A program made the position numbers and the translations under genes. 64,000 nucleotides of DNA, from positions 1 through 64,000 of the forward strand of contig NZ_BKAG01000037.1 of assembly GCF_007992435.1 (NCBI RefSeq). Direction: 5' to 3'. Below are positions 53,653-62,390 of the stretch, in pieces; the stretch's first letter is position 1; each line of letters begins with the position of its first letter. Below the pieces are notes generated by a model. The model was given only the letters and a program-made list of their open reading frames with translations, ran no database searches and had not been told where the DNA came from. The DNA is from Prosthecobacter gellanilyticus (GTDB taxonomy: Bacteria > Verrucomicrobiota > Verrucomicrobiia > Verrucomicrobiales > Verrucomicrobiaceae).

Positions 53653-55068
53653 ATGAAGGTCAATAACACTATCGTCATTTCCATCGGCCAGGCAGGCAAT
53701 CAGATCGCCTCATCTTTTTGGAAAACTCTCTGCCAGGAACATGGCATTGACCCTCTTTCTGGCTCCGTCGCACCAGGCACCAGCCCGCGTGGAAACTGGA
53801 GTTCCTTCTTTTCCCAGCTCGGTGAATCGGGGTCAGGCAGCTTTGTCCCGCGCGCAGTGATGGTGGACCTGGAGCCGAGCGTGATCGAGCACGTGAAGTC
53901 CACCTCTGGTTCGCTTTTCAATCCTGCCAACCTCATCAGCCGTCAGGAAGGTGCCGGTGGCAACTTCGCTGTGGGTTATTCCGGTGCAGGCCGCGAGGTG
54001 CTGCCGGAAGTGATGAGCCGCGTGACCTTTGAGATCGACAAGTGCGACAACGTGGGCGGAATCATCGTCATCCATTCCACCGGTGGTGGTACGGGCTCGG
54101 GCTTCGGCTCGCTGCTGATCGAGTCCATCAAGGAGAAGTATCCGGAAGCGCCCGTGCTGAGCTGCGCGGTGCTGCCTTCCCCGCAGGTCTCCAGTGTGGT
54201 CACGGAGCCTTACAACACGGTCTTTGCCCTCAACTGCCTGCGCCGCACGGCGGATGCGTGTTTGATCTTCGACAACGAAGCGCTCTTCGAGCTGGCTCAC
54301 CGCAAATGGAACATCGAGAGCCCGACGGTGGATGATCTGAACCTGCTCATCACCGAGGCGCTGGCCGGCATCACAGCTTCCATGCGTTTCAGCGGCTTCC
54401 TCACCGTGGAAATCAGCCTGCGCGAGCTGCTGACGAACCTGGTGCCGCAGCCTTCGCTGCACTTCCTCATGTGCGCCTTCGCGCCGCTGACGCCGCCTGA
54501 TCGCAGCAAGTTTGAGGAGATGGGTGTTGAGGACATGATCAAGTCTCTGTTCGACAACGGCAGCGTCTTCGCCGCCTGCTCGCCGATGGAAGGCCGCTTC
54601 CTCTCCACGGCGGTGCTTTACCGCGGCATCATGGAGGACAAGCCGCTGGCAGATGCCTCCCTGGCGGCGATGCGCGAGAAGCTGCCACTGACTTACTGGA
54701 TCCCGACTGCCTTCAAAATTGGTTATGTGGAGCAGTCCGGCATTTCCCACCGCAAGAGCATGGTGCTGCTGGCGAACAACACGGAGATCGCTCGTGTGCT
54801 GGACCGGATCTGCCACAACTTCGACAAGCTCTGGCAGCGCAAGGCTTTTGCGAACTGGTATCTCAACGAAGGCATGAACGAGGAGCAGATCATCGCCCTC
54901 CGCGCCTCCTCCCAGGAACTGATCCAGAGCTACCAGGTGGCCGAGGAGAGCGGAGCCAAGGCGAAGAGCCAGGACGAAAGCGTGACCGCCTCACGTGCCT
55001 ATGCCGGTGGCGAGGATCCCCGCCGCACCTCGTCTGTCAGCCTGCGTGACCTCGTGGACCGCCGCTGA
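53653..55068 (+). CDS. btubA: Bacterial tubulin BtubA
   Basis: BtubA is a tubulin homologue that co-polymerises with BtubB into small microtubule-like filaments in Prosthecobacter. The 471-residue product shows the nucleotide-binding tubulin signature GGGTGSG at residues 144-150, IGQAGNQIASSFW at the N-terminus, and the T7 region SLRELLTNLVPQP with Glu258 at the position of the catalytic Glu of alpha-tubulin. M-loop/S9-region sequence (FAPLTPPDRSKF) is present. No acidic C-terminal tail of eukaryotic type is seen; the end is ...SVSLRDLVDRR. Sequence similarity to known BtubA proteins is very high from memory, with many substitutions versus P. dejongeii. btubB follows 54 bp downstream. Confidence 0.98.
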   Translation: MKVNNTIVISIGQAGNQIASSFWKTLCQEHGIDPLSGSVAPGTSPRGNWSSFFSQLGESGSGSFVPRAVMVDLEPSVIEHVKSTSGSLFNPANLISRQEGAGGNFAVGYSGAGREVLPEVMSRVTFEIDKCDNVGGIIVIHSTGGGTGSGFGSLLIESIKEKYPEAPVLSCAVLPSPQVSSVVTEPYNTVFALNCLRRTADACLIFDNEALFELAHRKWNIESPTVDDLNLLITEALAGITASMRFSGFLTVEISLRELLTNLVPQPSLHFLMCAFAPLTPPDRSKFEEMGVEDMIKSLFDNGSVFAACSPMEGRFLSTAVLYRGIMEDKPLADASLAAMREKLPLTYWIPTAFKIGYVEQSGISHRKSMVLLANNTEIARVLDRICHNFDKLWQRKAFANWYLNEGMNEEQIIALRASSQELIQSYQVAEESGAKAKSQDESVTASRAYAGGEDPRRTSSVSLRDLVDRR

Positions 55069-55122
55069 TCCAGCCCCGCCCCCGAGCGCTTCTTTTTACC
55101 TAACTTCAAGCACGACAACACA

Positions 55123-56403
55123 GTGAGAGAGATCCTGAGCATTCACATCGGCCAGTGCGGCAACCAAATCGCGGACCGTTTCTGGCGGTTGATTTTGCGT
55201 GAGCATGGCCTCACCGACCAAGGCACGCCAAAAGACGGCGCCAGCGTGGCGAACAATGCCAACATGGAGGTCTTCTTTCACAAGATCCGTGACGGCAAAT
55301 ACGTCCCGCGTGCGGTGCTCGTGGATCTCGAGCCGGGCGTGATCGCCCGAATCGAAAGCGGTGAGATGTCCCAGCTCTTTGATGAGAGCAGCATCGTGCG
55401 CAAGATCCCGGGCGCCGCGAACAACTGGGCGCGCGGCTACAATGTCGAGGGCGAGCGTGTCATCGACCAGGTGATGAACGTCATCGACAACGCGGTGGAG
55501 AAGACCAAGGGCCTGCAGGGCTTCCTGATCACGCATTCCATCGGTGGTGGTTCCGGCTCCGGTCTCGGCTCGCTGATCCTGGAGCGTCTGCGCCAGGCTT
55601 ATCCGAAGAAGAAGATCTTCACGTTCTCCGTGGCTCCTTCGCCGCTGATCTCGGACTCCGCGGTGGAGCCTTACAATGCGATCCTCACGCTGCAGCGCAT
55701 CCTCGATCATGCGGACGGTGCGGTGATTCTGGACAACGAGGCGCTCTTCCGCATCGCGAAGGCGAAGCTGCACCGCGCGCCTAACTACATGGATCTCAAC
55801 CACATCGTGGCTTTGATCATGAGCTCGGTGACGGCATCCCTGCGTTTTCCAGGCCGCCTGAACACGGACCTGAATGAGTTTGTGACGAACCTGGTGCCCT
55901 TTCCGGGCAATCATTTCTTCACCGCCAGCTTCGCGCCGATGCGCGCAGCCGGCCAGGAAGGCCAGGTGCGCAGCAATTTCCCGGATCTCGCCCGCGAGAC
56001 TTTTTCCCAGGATAACTTCACTGCGGCCATCGACTGGCAGCAGGGGGTGTACCTTGCCGCGAGCGCGCTCTTCCGAGGTGACATCAAGCAGAAGGACGTG
56101 GATGAGAACATGGCCTCCATCCGCAAGGGCCTGAGCTTCGCCAGCTACATGCCTTCCGCCGGCGGTCTGAAGCTCGGCGTGGCTGAAACTGCTCCGGAGG
56201 GCTTTGCCTCCAGCGGTCTCGCGCTGGTGAACCACACGGGCATCGCAGCCGTGTTTGAGCGCCTGGTGAGCCAGTTTGACATCATGTTCGACAACCACGC
56301 CTACACCCACTGGTATGAGGCCGCAGGCGTCTCACGTGACATGATGGCGTCCGCGCGTGATTCGATCGCCAATCTGGCGAAGTCTTACCGCGACGCTTCG
56401 TGA
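55123..56403 (+). CDS. btubB: Bacterial tubulin BtubB
   Basis: BtubB is the second subunit of the BtubA/B heteropolymer. The 426-residue product starts with a GTG (MREILSIHIGQCGNQIADRF, as in known BtubB). The tubulin signature GGGSGSG is at residues 141-147. The T7 region NTDLNEFVTNLVPFP carries Glu252 where beta-tubulin has Lys254, so both subunits of this pair should support GTP hydrolysis on their partner. The C-terminus lacks an acidic tail (RDAS end). The 54-bp spacer after btubA contains CCTAAC but no obvious Shine-Dalgarno. bklc follows after 95 bp. Confidence 0.98.
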   Translation: MREILSIHIGQCGNQIADRFWRLILREHGLTDQGTPKDGASVANNANMEVFFHKIRDGKYVPRAVLVDLEPGVIARIESGEMSQLFDESSIVRKIPGAANNWARGYNVEGERVIDQVMNVIDNAVEKTKGLQGFLITHSIGGGSGSGLGSLILERLRQAYPKKKIFTFSVAPSPLISDSAVEPYNAILTLQRILDHADGAVILDNEALFRIAKAKLHRAPNYMDLNHIVALIMSSVTASLRFPGRLNTDLNEFVTNLVPFPGNHFFTASFAPMRAAGQEGQVRSNFPDLARETFSQDNFTAAIDWQQGVYLAASALFRGDIKQKDVDENMASIRKGLSFASYMPSAGGLKLGVAETAPEGFASSGLALVNHTGIAAVFERLVSQFDIMFDNHAYTHWYEAAGVSRDMMASARDSIANLAKSYRDAS

Positions 56404-56417
56404 TTCATGATTCTTGA

Positions 56418-56476
56418 TTCCTGAGTCAGGATTCAACAACTCGTCTGCCTTCACCGTTTGAATCAGGAGTCAGGAA
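56418..56476 (+). other. Stem-loop between btubB and bklc
   Basis: Arms 56418-56436 and 56458-56476 form a 19-bp inverted repeat with 16 paired positions and a 21-nt loop. There is no T-tract. The bklc start lies 23 bp downstream. Confidence 0.6.
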
Positions 56477-56498
56477 TGTAAAATCAGGAATATTAGTG

Positions 56499-57266
56499 AT
56501 GGACCCCAACCTCGAGCGTCAGCTTCTGTCGGCCTCCCGCAGTGTCGAGGAGGTCCGTCGGCTCGCGTATCGTGATCCGGCACGGATCGGCCAGCTCGTG
56601 GAGCAGATCAGTGTGCTGGCGGATCTGCGGCAGAAGGAGGGGGACTTTCGCAAGGCGGAGTCGCTCTATCGTGAAGCGCTTTATCGTGCCCAGGAACTGA
56701 AGAAGCCGGATCCGGATCTGCTTTGCGGCATTCACAGCCTGCTGGCGCATCTCTATGATCGCTGGGGTCAAATGGACAAGGCAGCGGAGTACTATGGCAA
56801 GGCGCTGAAGATTGCCGATGACGCTCATCTGGAGAACAATGACAAGGTGGCGACGATCAAGAACAACCTCGCCATGATCTTCAAGCAACTGCGGGACTAC
56901 CCGAAGGCCGAGCAGTACTATCAGGAAGCGCTGGAGACCTTCCGCACCACCGATGGTGGGGAGAGCCCGCGAGTGGCCAGCGTGCTGAACAACCTGGGCG
57001 TGCTCTACTATTCCAACATGGATGTGGAGCGCGCGCAGCAGATGCATGAGCATGCGCTGGGCATCCGCCAAAGTCTCGCAAACGATCAACTCGATCCCAC
57101 CGATCTCTCGCAGACTTACATCAATCTCGGCGCGGTGTACAAAGCCACGGGTGACTTCCAAAAGGCCGAAGCCTGCGTGGACCGCGCGAAGCGCATCCGC
57201 GCGGGACTGAACGGCTTCCATCCGAATCCGAGACGGGCTGCTTCGCTGCTCATCGACAAGACTTGA
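56499..57266 (+). CDS. bklc: Bacterial kinesin light chain-like TPR protein Bklc
   Basis: Bklc is the third gene of the Prosthecobacter tubulin operon. The product (255 residues from the ATG at 56499; a GTG three bases earlier is possible) consists of about five TPR units with the kinesin-light-chain repeat pattern, for example DFRKAESLYREALYRAQEL, DKAAEYYGKALKIADD, YPKAEQYYQEALETFRTTDG and DFQKAEACVDRAKRI. It has no signal peptide. Published work on Bklc describes binding to bacterial microtubules and membranes. The sequence itself shows only a protein-interaction scaffold. It is separated from btubB by a stem-loop. Confidence 0.95.
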   Translation: MDPNLERQLLSASRSVEEVRRLAYRDPARIGQLVEQISVLADLRQKEGDFRKAESLYREALYRAQELKKPDPDLLCGIHSLLAHLYDRWGQMDKAAEYYGKALKIADDAHLENNDKVATIKNNLAMIFKQLRDYPKAEQYYQEALETFRTTDGGESPRVASVLNNLGVLYYSNMDVERAQQMHEHALGIRQSLANDQLDPTDLSQTYINLGAVYKATGDFQKAEACVDRAKRIRAGLNGFHPNPRRAASLLIDKT

Positions 57267-57359: not shown

Positions 57360-60300
57360 TCAGTAAAAATCCACCAGCGTTTCAACGAGGCTTGAACTAT
57401 TGTCGTGGTAGGCGCGGCCACGGGCACGGATTCGGCCTGAGACAGGGAGATTGATTCCTGACAGTCCCCAGCCCCCGCTGATGTGGCTGGCATTTCCGAG
57501 GAGTGTCCAGGTGCTGCCGTTATTGGTGCTGAGCTCAAATGTAACATTTGAGATCTCAAGCGCTGCTCCTCCACGAAGCCATTCGAGGCGGTTTTTGGAG
57601 ATGGTCACATGCCCGCTGGTTGGCAATGCAGGGCATCTGATCAGGTTGCCACTGTCATAGTCGAAAGCATAGCGGCTGCTATCAGGGAGAATAGAACTGG
57701 GCAGCCATGAATAAGGCTCCTGAAAATCTTGGGTCGATCCATCTGGAAGCACATGGTAAATGCGAGACAAGATCGAATCAAAAATTCGAAGGCTTTGGTC
57801 TGCTTGCAAAAACATTCGTTCACCTGAAACACTTGTTCCATCAGATACCAGGACCGGGTTTAAAGCCGCCTCCAGAACGCCTGCTGAGCTGAGGCGTGCA
57901 ACTCCAGACCAACTGTTGGATGGATCCCCCCCCACCATGATTTTGCCGTCCGGTAGAATGGCAAAGTCATAGATGCTCGCCGATCCCGCTCCCGAAAAAT
58001 TAAACGATGGATCGGCGGTCCCAGAAGAAGTCAGCCGCGACAGGAACGAACTGTAATCTTGGTTATTCCCATTGAGTAGGATTTTTTCGTCTGGTTGAAG
58101 TCGCACCGAGTCCAACATGTCGTAGATCCTGGTCGCAAAGCTGGTGTCACGAGATCCATTGGCATTTATACGGGTGACAAAATCTCCGTAAAGTTCATCA
58201 GATGCGCGGCGCGAAGTGCCGAAGATCACAATCTTTCCATCCCGTTGAACGTTGCATGCGTGAATGGCACATACTTCGAAGCCGGCACCAAGCGCGGGCG
58301 GCTGAAATTTGAAAGAACTGTCCAGGCTGCCATTGGACAGAAGCTTTCGCAGAAAGGGAGGTGTGTTTCCATCGAAGCCAAAGATGGCAGTCGCGCCACT
58401 ACTGATCAGGAGTTTGCCGTCATTCATGACGCAGATACCGTTTAGATAAGCAACTTTCTGCGCAGAGAATGAAGTGTCGAGAGAGCCATCTGGGAAGACC
58501 CGAACCACATCGCTGCGCCGCACGCCATTCACCTCGTCAAACTCACCACCGATGATGATTTTGCCATCGGGCTGTGCGACGACTTGATCAATCCATCCTG
58601 GAGAAGAATTGCCATCACTGTCCACTCGTAGCGTCACTAACGTGAAAGTGGGATCAACAGCGTCGATGCCGAGAGTTGGCAGCATGATGAGCTCTGGCTG
58701 TCCATTGTTGGAGCCATTGCCAATCTGGCCTCTCTCATTGCTGCCCGCTGCCCAGACCGTGCCATCCGCGCGCAGGCAAAGAAAATGAGTCAGAGAGACG
58801 AGAGAGCCGTCCAGTGTCACGCGCTGGCCTCCCGCAGCTAGTTCGATGATTTTTAGACTGCCTGGCGCTTCTGTGTCCAGACGCAGCGGTGTGGTCAGCT
58901 TCTCAGTCAATCCCAGCAGGGCAGAGGAGTCCATGACCACAATGTTGCTCATGTCGTCTTCCGTAATGACGCGTTCTCCCCATGTCCAGACACTGCCCTC
59001 AGTGGTGAGGACAAAGGCCTGATCACTTCCGGCGGTGATTTGAGCGATTTTTTCACCTTGGAAGGTGTGTGGGCTGCCCGTTGAGGCATCGGTCACCATG
59101 ACGGGAGACGGTTTGGAGGTGAATGTGCCATCGCCCAGTACGCCGCGTTCATTGCTTCCCCAGGCCCAGACCACGCCGGACTCGCTGACAGCGAAGGAGG
59201 AATGCGAGGAGCAGGCGATGCCTATGATGCGCGCGCCATTGAAGGATGCTGCGGAGATTTTGACGGGCTTGGCCTGCCGGGGGGTGTCGCCGAGTCCGAG
59301 CTGACCATGCGTGTTCGATCCCCAGGCCCAGAGCTGGCCGTCACTGTCCAGAGCGAGGTTGTGGTGAGAGCCGGCTGCCAGACGAATGATCCTGGCGCTG
59401 GTGAAGCTTTTGGTTATGTCCACAGGAGTCGTCAGGATGTGGGCCATGTTGCTCGCTGGACTCTTGACCACACCATTTCCGAGCTGGCCTTGAGTCTGGT
59501 CTCCCCAGGTCCATACCCCTCCTGAATTGGTGAGGATCAGCGTGTGATAGGCACCGCCCGCGATTTGCACGACCTGCGCACTGCCCCAGCCTTTTTTGGC
59601 TGGCACTGGCTGATGGACGGGAATGTCACTTGTGGTTTTGCCGTCTCCAAAGCTCGCCAAGTCCGGGTTTCCCCAGCTAAGCAAGGCTCCGTCTTGGCGG
59701 GCAGCATGAATTTGGGAACCACCGCCACCCACGGCTACTGGCGGACTCTGCAGGCTGGCCACGGAGAGGGTCGGCGCTGCAAGCGAGTCGAAGTAAGAGC
59801 TCCCAGATTCATCCCCCATTGCTTGTGACCCCCAGGCCTTCCACCGGCCCGTGGCTTCAAAATAAAAGCTGCCGTAGGCGTTGGCGGCAATCTTCTTGGA
59901 AATGGCCAGGGGTGCCACCGGGCCAAAAGCCCGGCCTTGGATGGCGAAAACGTACAAGCCGCCGTCTGTCATCCCCGACCCAGTGGTGGGGATGACGACC
60001 GTGCTGTCGAAAGTGCCCTTGAACCCGGGGATATAACGGATCACGAAGGTGGTTTTGGCCCCGGGTTTGAGGACCGTGGCTGACGGTTGTGTCTTAATGG
60101 TGAAATGCGGGCTGCTGTTGTTTCCAGCCAGGCTGACCTTGGGATTACCCGTCAGGGAGATGTCAGAGAATCCCTGGTTGGTGATGGTGTAGGTCTGGTC
60201 CACCTGGCCCTTGCGGTAGTCCACAGATCCAAAGTCCGTTGCCAGGGCGGCATCGATCAAAGTGCTGCCATCACTGATGGGAATGCCCTTCGCATTCGTC

Positions 60301-62390
60301 ACGACGGTATAACCAGAAACATCGGTCTGCGTGGCGTGCAGGGTGTAGTCTCCCACGATGTCCGCATTTGCGCCTTTCACTTCCACGATGTAAGTGCCGG
60401 GGTCGAGCACACGGGTGAGGCTGAAGTTCCGATTTTCACCGCCAGCATCTGCTGAGAGCAGTTTGGTCTGCTTGCTGGCAAGCTGATAGAGCGTTCCGAA
60501 TGTGTCCGTGCTTCCCGAGGTCCAAAAGGTGCAAAGCTTTCGTTGCGTGAGCACGAAGCGAAACATGTCGATATCACTGCCGTAATCCAGGGCGCTGGAG
60601 GAAGCAATTTCACTCACATCCCACCCAGAAGTTTCCGTGGTGGCGCTGGCGAGATGAGGCAGGTCTCCCGAAGGTGCTGCAAAGGTATTGGGTGCTGTTC
60701 CTCTGATAATGAATCTGAAGCTTGGATAACCGGGGTCGTCGGATTCCACTCGAACAAAGGCTGAATGTCTTCCAAGACTGTCTGGCTGATATCGTATGGC
60801 AAAGCCGACTGGCAAGACTCCATCGATAGCCCCATCAGTGGGCTGGCCGGTCACTTGGAACTGATCCGCGTTCGGTCCGCTGAGGGCGACACGTGGTGAG
60901 CCTGTTAGTGTCAGGATGCCGCCGCCTTGATTGCGGATATTGAACATCAATTCCTTTGTCGGAGCTTTGGTCGTGAGAGTGCCAAATTCAGTTCCGAGTG
61001 CCACGCTGACATTGGAGGGACGGATGCCATAGGGGATCGGGCTGGTCTTCTTGTCGCCGACAATCTGGATACGTTGCGTTCCATCGCCGGGAATGGAAGA
61101 TACATTGAGACAGTATCTGCCCGTGAGTGTCGGATAAGCTCCACGCACGTGAAGGGTGTAGTCACCTTTGAGAAGCCTGATGCGAAACCGGAAATTTCCA
61201 TCATCACCTGCATTATCATTGCTGATGGAGGGAGTGCCAAAAATTTTGGTCATGTTAGTTCCGGACAAAGTGCCGACTGTGTCCATATTGACGGCGGCTC
61301 CTGCGGCGGCTGTCTCAATCAAGTAGGTGCCGTCGGCGGGAATCTTGATCTCAAAACGATCCCAGAATTCAGGACGGGATATGCTTCCCAGAAGGTACTC
61401 GGCTGACCATGGGACGGAGATCTTCCGGACGATGGATGCTGGGTCGGTTTTTTTGTAGGAGACTTTTATGCGAGCATCCGCGATGACCTTCTTTGCGACG
61501 GGTGAATCGAGCGGAATTGAAAGCCCAGTTGAGTAGCCCACAATGCCAGCCAGTCGATATTCCTCTCCAGAATTCCGAACCCATAAAGGACCTCCACTAT
61601 TTCCACCGTAGATTTCAAATCCAGACGGCGCAAAGGAGGGTTGTAGTGATGCACTGAAAGATTTCAGACCTTGAAAAGACTGAAAAGGTGTGGCTGGCAA
61701 GAAAGCCTCGAACAAGGTGAATTTGGGGTCGGACGCTCCATTTGGTTTTGCTGGATAACCTGTGTACAGCTTGTCTGTGCTTTCCGATTTCAAACTCTGC
61801 GTGGGAGTCAATGCTTCCGCAGCATAGCCACCATCTGAAGCGAGATTTTGATAACTCCAAACTATGGCGAGATCACGGTCCACTTTCGATATGTATCGGC
61901 TGAACGCTTCATCTTGTGCAGGGCCTGGGGGTAGAAGATCTACATCTCCCATCGCCGCAAAAGCTAATGCAAAATCCGCATAGGATGTTTCACGCACGAC
62001 CTCGCGCATAGTGTGTTGTGTTCCGCTCCCATGATTCGGTTCAACGGTCGATGTATAAGATGCATGCCAGCTAATGCGTTTGGCCCATGGATAGTCGCTG
62101 TATGGAAAATTGAGATGGTTGCGCTCTCCGTCACAAATGACATGAGCACAACCCAGGACAAATCTTGGGTGCAGAGCGACGACGCCTGAACCTCTGTCGG
62201 TGCTGCTTATCAGCGGATTAATGCGAGAGAAATGAGCTTCCAGGTATCCATTCCATCTGTACGGGTGACCCTCCATTTTCGAAGAGGCATCTGTGACCTG
62301 GGCGAAAGAACTGATTGAAAGGCACCATACGCAGAAAAGATATGCGCTAGCAGCACGAAGATGAATTCCAAAGAGGGGATAGATTGACAT
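57360..62390 (-). CDS. Giant secreted trypsin-like/RCC1-repeat protein
   Basis: The product has 1676 residues. A signal peptide (residues 1-31, ending SISSFAQ) precedes a trypsin-like domain: His83 in GCAHVI, an Asp near 138 (YADFALAF) and the Ser in YGGNSGGPLW near 265. Two PPC-like beta-sandwiches alternate with two choice-of-anchor-D/ASH-type modules (residues about 330-820, NQGGGILTLTGSPRV and NQGFSDISLTGNPKV). About 830-1233 is an RCC1-type propeller (WTWGDQTQGQLGNG; WAWGSNTHGQLGLG; WAWGSNERGVLGDG). About 1255-1580 holds delta-60-like repeats (QPDGKIIIGGEFDEVNGV). Base composition varies: the two ends are more AT-rich than the middle. It starts 9 bp after the preceding gene on its strand. 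Confidence 0.88.
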   Translation of the reverse strand: MSIYPLFGIHLRAASAYLFCVWCLSISSFAQVTDASSKMEGHPYRWNGYLEAHFSRINPLISSTDRGSGVVALHPRFVLGCAHVICDGERNHLNFPYSDYPWAKRISWHASYTSTVEPNHGSGTQHTMREVVRETSYADFALAFAAMGDVDLLPPGPAQDEAFSRYISKVDRDLAIVWSYQNLASDGGYAAEALTPTQSLKSESTDKLYTGYPAKPNGASDPKFTLFEAFLPATPFQSFQGLKSFSASLQPSFAPSGFEIYGGNSGGPLWVRNSGEEYRLAGIVGYSTGLSIPLDSPVAKKVIADARIKVSYKKTDPASIVRKISVPWSAEYLLGSISRPEFWDRFEIKIPADGTYLIETAAAGAAVNMDTVGTLSGTNMTKIFGTPSISNDNAGDDGNFRFRIRLLKGDYTLHVRGAYPTLTGRYCLNVSSIPGDGTQRIQIVGDKKTSPIPYGIRPSNVSVALGTEFGTLTTKAPTKELMFNIRNQGGGILTLTGSPRVALSGPNADQFQVTGQPTDGAIDGVLPVGFAIRYQPDSLGRHSAFVRVESDDPGYPSFRFIIRGTAPNTFAAPSGDLPHLASATTETSGWDVSEIASSSALDYGSDIDMFRFVLTQRKLCTFWTSGSTDTFGTLYQLASKQTKLLSADAGGENRNFSLTRVLDPGTYIVEVKGANADIVGDYTLHATQTDVSGYTVVTNAKGIPISDGSTLIDAALATDFGSVDYRKGQVDQTYTITNQGFSDISLTGNPKVSLAGNNSSPHFTIKTQPSATVLKPGAKTTFVIRYIPGFKGTFDSTVVIPTTGSGMTDGGLYVFAIQGRAFGPVAPLAISKKIAANAYGSFYFEATGRWKAWGSQAMGDESGSSYFDSLAAPTLSVASLQSPPVAVGGGGSQIHAARQDGALLSWGNPDLASFGDGKTTSDIPVHQPVPAKKGWGSAQVVQIAGGAYHTLILTNSGGVWTWGDQTQGQLGNGVVKSPASNMAHILTTPVDITKSFTSARIIRLAAGSHHNLALDSDGQLWAWGSNTHGQLGLGDTPRQAKPVKISAASFNGARIIGIACSSHSSFAVSESGVVWAWGSNERGVLGDGTFTSKPSPVMVTDASTGSPHTFQGEKIAQITAGSDQAFVLTTEGSVWTWGERVITEDDMSNIVVMDSSALLGLTEKLTTPLRLDTEAPGSLKIIELAAGGQRVTLDGSLVSLTHFLCLRADGTVWAAGSNERGQIGNGSNNGQPELIMLPTLGIDAVDPTFTLVTLRVDSDGNSSPGWIDQVVAQPDGKIIIGGEFDEVNGVRRSDVVRVFPDGSLDTSFSAQKVAYLNGICVMNDGKLLISSGATAIFGFDGNTPPFLRKLLSNGSLDSSFKFQPPALGAGFEVCAIHACNVQRDGKIVIFGTSRRASDELYGDFVTRINANGSRDTSFATRIYDMLDSVRLQPDEKILLNGNNQDYSSFLSRLTSSGTADPSFNFSGAGSASIYDFAILPDGKIMVGGDPSNSWSGVARLSSAGVLEAALNPVLVSDGTSVSGERMFLQADQSLRIFDSILSRIYHVLPDGSTQDFQEPYSWLPSSILPDSSRYAFDYDSGNLIRCPALPTSGHVTISKNRLEWLRGGAALEISNVTFELSTNNGSTWTLLGNASHISGGWGLSGINLPVSGRIRARGRAYHDNSSSLVETLVDFY

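Follow-up and report, generated by a model that had tools for sequence, protein, structure and literature searches.

How much of a bacterial microtubule system is contained in the genes btubA, btubB and bklc, and are both of its nucleotide sites equipped for hydrolysis? These questions are raised by a stretch of 64,000 nucleotides (nt) from Prosthecobacter gellanilyticus (contig NZ_BKAG01000037.1; the window), in which the three genes adjoin one another on the same strand at 53653-57266, each as an uninterrupted reading frame (Table 1). Our analysis bears out the claim of the first-pass annotation that this is a complete bacterial tubulin operon, with intact, adjacent plus-strand genes and full-length matches to proteins of solved structure. 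BtubA matches 2bto (E 1.1e-280) and BtubB matches 2btq (E 2.8e-257); both contain the Pfam Tubulin and Tubulin_C domains and are closest to BtubA/BtubB. Bklc contains tetratricopeptide repeat (TPR) families and matches 5o01 over nearly its whole length (E 6.1e-127); the bklc start that agrees with 5o01 is the ATG at 56499, the GTG one codon earlier (56496) being merely an alternative. The operon is confirmed as real; it is not unusual, and operons of its kind have been described before.

The same annotation placed a Glu at the alpha-tubulin Glu254 position in the T7 loop of both subunits, unlike eukaryotic beta-tubulin, and the alignments agree. BtubA 258 and BtubB 252 of the window are both Glu, and they fall in the same column as the T7 Glu of eukaryotic-type alpha-tubulin and the Glu of two Asgard AtubB proteins. 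This catalytic column holds Lys in Loki AtubA and in the beta-tubulin chains, the latter in keeping with the K254 that the accessible text of the Asgard AtubAB paper gives for beta-tubulin. Aligned with relatives and Asgard tubulins, neither subunit shows another residue at this position. Within the window's family (f1), the T7 Glu is found in 43/43 BtubA and 43/43 BtubB rows that cover the loop; these rows include the window, two operons from one genome (G017), a stop-interrupted BtubB (G032) and one BtubA with an altered loop flank that was read separately, and the loop is uncovered in L143 (BtubA) and in L139 and L141 (BtubB). It is also present in 2/2 BtubA and 3/3 BtubB of family f3. Among rows of at least 400 amino acids (aa), 21/24 positions around the loop are invariant in BtubA and 20/24 in BtubB, compared with 56% and 59% of all positions, respectively; five BtubA and three BtubB rows below this length were omitted from the comparison, and those covering the loop were read for the T7 residue. 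The double-Glu state is thus fixed in the sequences seen, and is no quirk of P. dejongeii. It is not new, an activating T7 loop in both subunits having been published before (Pilhofer 2011, PMC3232192, in the part available).

BtubB matches were found in 43 of 68 family f1 genomes, from 7 of 11 genera. One of these (G030) holds a relic; btub genes are present in the other 42, in some of which they are broken or divided between contigs. The order btubA-btubB-bklc, seen in the window, holds in every family locus as far as its contig extends. The intact co-directional genes, the full-length solved relatives, the family-wide T7 Glu, the conserved gene order and the work on related proteins together make it very probable that the window contains a functional btub operon of the Prosthecobacter type. 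A phylum-wide BtubB search matched 5 of 387 genomes, all in family f1; a query with TubX, a third tubulin described below, matched 52 of 386, of which 10 lie outside f1 and within the order, and the BtubB answer is thus incomplete. For the TubX query six first-look candidates were scored per genome, and several genomes had more. One genome of family f2 (G691; L259, L260) was set aside, its genes encoding eukaryotic-type alpha-tubulins that we read as probable contamination. Several family loci are irregular. btubB of G032 (L126) has a stop at residue 107 and btubA of G011 (L134) and G014 (L117) lies in two frames, each a pseudogene or an assembly error. btubB of G030 (L141:4906-6182) is decayed, with a stop and missing stretches; the neighbouring bklc is open and full length, and the genes downstream of the relic match the main Prosthecobacter locus. 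G017 has two operons (L101, L102); of all family BtubA rows compared, that of the second operon diverges most (75.4% identity to the window).

Table 1. Positions of the operon features in the window and of single-protein fusions of a helix-turn-helix (HTH) domain with TubX in family f4.
Feature	Position	Strand	Basis
btubA, bacterial tubulin A, 471 aa, ATG start	53653-55068	+	Open reading frame; 2bto match; Pfam
BtubA Glu258 codon GAG (T7 loop, alpha-Glu254 place)	54424-54426	+	Alignments
btubB, bacterial tubulin B, 426 aa, GTG start	55123-56403	+	Open reading frame; 2btq match; Pfam
BtubB Glu252 codon GAG (T7 loop)	55876-55878	+	Alignments
btubB-bklc spacer with palindromic dispersed repeat	56404-56498 (repeat 56401-56498)	+	Repeat matches, palindrome, RNA fold
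bklc, bacterial kinesin light chain (TPR protein), 255 aa from ATG	56499-57266	+	5o01 match; TPR families
HTH-TubX single proteins, family f4	L266:7625-9556, L261:7793-9724, L265:6149-7930		

The window proteins had also been proposed as a distinct variant useful for comparison. They do differ from those of P. dejongeii (window BtubA is 87.8% identical to 2bto), but the case for their usefulness is weak. Variation in the loop is slight, and at sites where all other compared rows agree, the window departs from them nowhere in BtubA and once in BtubB (Ile9). BtubA of G018 is identical to 2bto, and by this match G018 is probably P. dejongeii. With the known Prosthecobacter proteins (2bto, 2btq, 5o09, 7quq) the window shares the sequence family, both T7 Glu residues, two extra residues in the BtubA T7 loop and the gene order; it differs in having other flanking genes than G018 and a palindromic repeat between btubB and bklc. 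Its Bklc is a TPR protein like those of 5o01 and 5o09, with a nearly full-length match, and differs in sequence only, so far as compared. The Asgard AtubA/AtubB system (9f6t; AtubB of 24rt) is likewise a two-subunit tubulin, also reported as an operon in Kariarchaea (in the accessible text), whose AtubB has a T7 Glu like BtubB; Loki AtubA, in contrast, has a T7 Lys and lacks the two loop residues of BtubA. Eukaryotic alpha/beta-tubulin has the tubulin fold and the alpha T7 Glu in common with the bacterial pair, and Lys in beta where BtubA has Glu.

The comparison also points beyond the three genes. Directly upstream of btubA, on the same strand and 25-345 nt away, 25 of the 41 loci with usable upstream sequence (L114, L119, L120 and others) carry a gene encoding 708-870 aa (split in two frames in G032), whose product is best read, from profile matches, a structural model and motifs, as a membrane-anchored tandem pseudokinase. 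Two of the 41 loci are ambiguous from short contigs, five further loci offered no usable upstream sequence, and 14 loci in 13 genomes of the window's clade clearly lack the gene at this place. It is not present beside the window operon, and the window genome (7.65 Mb, 137 contigs) yielded only a 26% paralogue among the 19 of 26 first-look candidates scored. Pfam gives a protein kinase match just below its cut-off in the second half of the protein, and each half has a weak NCBIfam kinase match (residues 32-128 and 347-424). An AlphaFold2 model of moderate confidence (mean predicted local distance difference test score 70.7, predicted template modelling score 0.66) retrieves PknB-type kinases with Foldseek (best E 9.9e-10). 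The expected strand 3 lysine is replaced by His in both halves of all 14 aligned proteins, which also share a D-x-HPSN motif in the second half and a linker motif ESxGxxSDF; the corresponding first-half segment is variable and has no conserved catalytic motif, an HLD triplet lying nearby in 6/14. A hydrophobic segment is found near residue 620 in each of the six proteins checked.

Is this protein a partner of the tubulins or only an old neighbour, unrelated to them? The latter is a serious possibility, to which we give somewhat less than an even chance. The pseudokinase is present in 39 of the 42 btub genomes, even where it is located elsewhere, as in G018, in which it lies on another contig than btub, and 21 of the 26 genomes without intact btub have none. 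Presence here means at least 53% identity, a line set after viewing the list, with paralogues of at most 50% taken as absent and a G009 copy with a stop as present; 19 first-look candidates were scored per genome, and several genomes had more. We do not take the plain co-occurrence (Fisher p 5e-10) at face value, as relatives are counted repeatedly in it. On an rpoB tree of 58 genomes, which omits 10 of the 68 (nine without a match and G014 with a partial one), of 10 independent pairs, a mean of 6.7 show the pseudokinase changing together with btub and 0.2 show the opposite change (median p 0.03; range 0.008-0.22), and a relative occupies the same place in family f3; both observations speak against mere neighbourhood. 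On the other hand, a single deletion can remove two neighbours, the gene persists in the remaining five family genomes without intact btub, among them G030 with its btubB relic, and the link is weak in the clade where the genes lie apart (19 tree rows, Fisher p 0.07). Once restricted to genomes above 4.3 Mb, the same pair test has 3.9 of 6 pairs changing together, with a median p of 0.375.

A larger version of the locus is seen in other families. btub-type genes occur in 3 of 74 family f3 genomes (G519, G470 and G545). The first G519 contig (L256:1-5480, minus strand) carries on one strand genes for an HTH protein (64% identical to that of G470), TubX (33% to BtubA), a pseudokinase relative (29% over 333 residues), BtubA (63%) and, at the contig end, the start of BtubB; a second contig (L257:7606-9653, minus strand) has the remaining BtubB (70%) and Bklc (43%). 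G470 has a decayed version (L258:4459-10046, minus strand), with open frames for HTH, TubX and Bklc, a broken pseudokinase and a truncated BtubB; btubA was looked for and not found. In G545, BtubA is separated by a run of unknown bases from BtubB and Bklc. Tubulins of the TubX type are also found in 6 of 13 family f4 genomes, in which the TubX-query search gave no other tubulin match and no btubAB was found. HTH and TubX form one protein in G053, G465 and G044 (E 1e-35, 1e-35 and 6e-17, respectively, to the separate G470 HTH protein). The G050 protein matches that HTH protein weakly and past the HTH (E 0.004), the G471 protein is nearly the same as that of G050, and the G473 protein is cut by its contig. 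Pfam reports an HTH with a score above its cut-off for G465 and for the stand-alone G470 protein; that of G053 stays below the cut-off, and G044 has no such match. TubX falls with BtubA in the trees and, like it, fills the two extra loop columns; its catalytic place holds neither Glu nor Lys in 6 of 7 rows, the two f3 copies lacking the T7 Glu and G053 having a Glu where the alignment is poor. To differing degrees, the f4 rows deviate from the GTP-binding motif. Searched with TubX, the f1 genomes gave btubA and btubB only, and the HTH protein had one weak match (E 7e-8) in the 68 f1 genomes. It is possible, though we would put it below an even chance, that the three genes are what remains of an older locus of six (XRE-type HTH, TubX, pseudokinase, btubA, btubB, bklc), pared down to its core. 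In that locus TubX and the HTH protein would form a tubulin bound to DNA, serving as a sensor of the tubulin pool or as a link between DNA and tubulin; the HTH protein and TubX would then have been lost in Prosthecobacter, and the pseudokinase as well in the window genome.

The origin of the BtubA glutamate can be read in two ways. Given the Lys of Loki AtubA and its lack of the two residues that stand just before the T7 Glu in 15/15 BtubA rows, the simplest reading is that BtubA may have regained its Glu together with a two-residue insertion, a lead that we take from the alignments. Alternatively, the double Glu would be an ancestral, FtsZ-like state that was retained, as argued by Pilhofer 2011 (PMC3232192) in speaking of a retained ancient feature in the part available, and as might be expected from the Glu in BtubB and in AtubB of both Loki and 24rt. 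We consider retention the less probable course, with about one chance in three: besides the Loki residue, the accessible part of the paper on Kariarchaeal AtubA gives Lys248 there and places BtubA inside the AtubA clade, and in our tree the group of BtubA and TubX excludes Loki AtubA with support of 99/94, a result that is limited by long branches, a root set by choice and a single AtubA row. Rows of TubX, HTH-TubX and G470 BtubB were trimmed to the tubulin part for the trees, and this tree leaves out the five HTH-TubX rows.

How would the two glutamates work? BtubA-BtubB heterodimers would stack head to tail into mini-microtubules of few protofilaments, each T7 loop completing the GTPase site of the subunit below, so that BtubB Glu252 would act on the guanosine triphosphate (GTP) of BtubA between dimers and BtubA Glu258 on that of BtubB within the dimer; Bklc would bind the filament and tether it to the membrane. 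The assignment of loops to sites, hydrolysis at both, which the first-pass annotation expected from the two residues, and all function in this organism are what we infer; filaments and GTPase activity of related proteins have been shown by others, and P. vanneervenii Bklc binds filaments and lipid (PMC5372463), as far as the available texts go. Several points weigh against this scheme. In the accessible text of Sontag 2009, BtubA-E258K is a within-dimer assembly mutant that, with wild-type BtubB, does not assemble and yet hydrolyses 0.088 GTP/min compared with 0.117 for the wild type (different assays and temperatures); as E258K keeps most of the GTPase activity, Glu258 is no more than a candidate catalyst of a second site. 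With N100E its dissociation constant is 61 uM, compared with 3.2 uM for a between-dimer pair, and Glu258 may mainly be a dimer contact. The same text names the BtubB loop as aberrant and assigns E254 to beta-tubulin, the reverse of the Asgard AtubAB paper and of the alignment here, in which it is the BtubA loop that holds two extra residues and beta has Lys. Finally, the btubB-bklc repeat could reduce bklc expression. It is palindromic, with 8 further partial matches elsewhere in the window genome; the RNA fold of the spacer has a z of -1.86, with 9 of 200 shuffles equally stable, and, measured in one way, the spacer has 92 nt in the window, 9 nt in L099 and 23 nt in L100, the two loci whose BtubB is closest to that of the window. 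The rival that follows from the mutant data, in which Glu258 is a structural dimer contact and the within-dimer GTP is in practice unhydrolysed as in eukaryotic tubulin, would defeat the two-site claim despite the residue. Besides the within-dimer assembly defect and small GTPase loss of E258K, the two extra residues of the BtubA loop relative to the aligned alpha, AtubA and AtubB loops, which may give it another geometry, count in its favour; we nevertheless find it unlikely, as every loop-covering BtubA row has Glu and not Lys, and dimer-limited mutant pairs still hydrolyse GTP (0.07-0.08; Sontag 2009). FtsZ as the source of the tubulin matches is rejected, the third tubulin-family protein of the window genome (G000:C8) itself reading as a putative FtsZ and adjoining an FtsA-like gene.

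Next to the operon, on the minus strand (57360-62390), lies a gene for a 1676-aa protein with RCC1 and DUF5122 repeats (Pfam) and a sub-threshold match to a HYDIN-type immunoglobulin-like domain. The search patterns used for btub genes in viral contigs gave no matching stretch.

Kinases beside other tubulin-superfamily genes are already known: FtsZ-like 1 loci with Ser/Thr kinase genes and Planctomycetes Tubulin_2 proteins with an N-terminal kinase domain are precedents from other branches, and btub genes are unmentioned in the accessible parts of those sources. We met no mention of the pseudokinase or of HTH/TubX as btub partners in a limited literature search, whose coverage left most subscription papers and the 2007 operon paper outside. 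A word search of the available text of the 2026 Asgard tubulin paper gave none either; its authors describe additional BtubA/B sequences from Verrucomicrobia and may therefore have come across some of the partner genes.

The window itself is one more member of the family, and it is the family comparison that matters more. It adds a possible regained Glu and a possible wider gene set, and suggests that the three genes are the core of a larger group. A kinase-like protein would belong to it, as would, among distant relatives, a third tubulin coupled to a DNA-binding domain. The tandem pseudokinase and the HTH-linked third tubulin are thus candidate partners for the bacterial microtubule system, and BtubA may be a case of a tubulin that has regained a second hydrolysis site.

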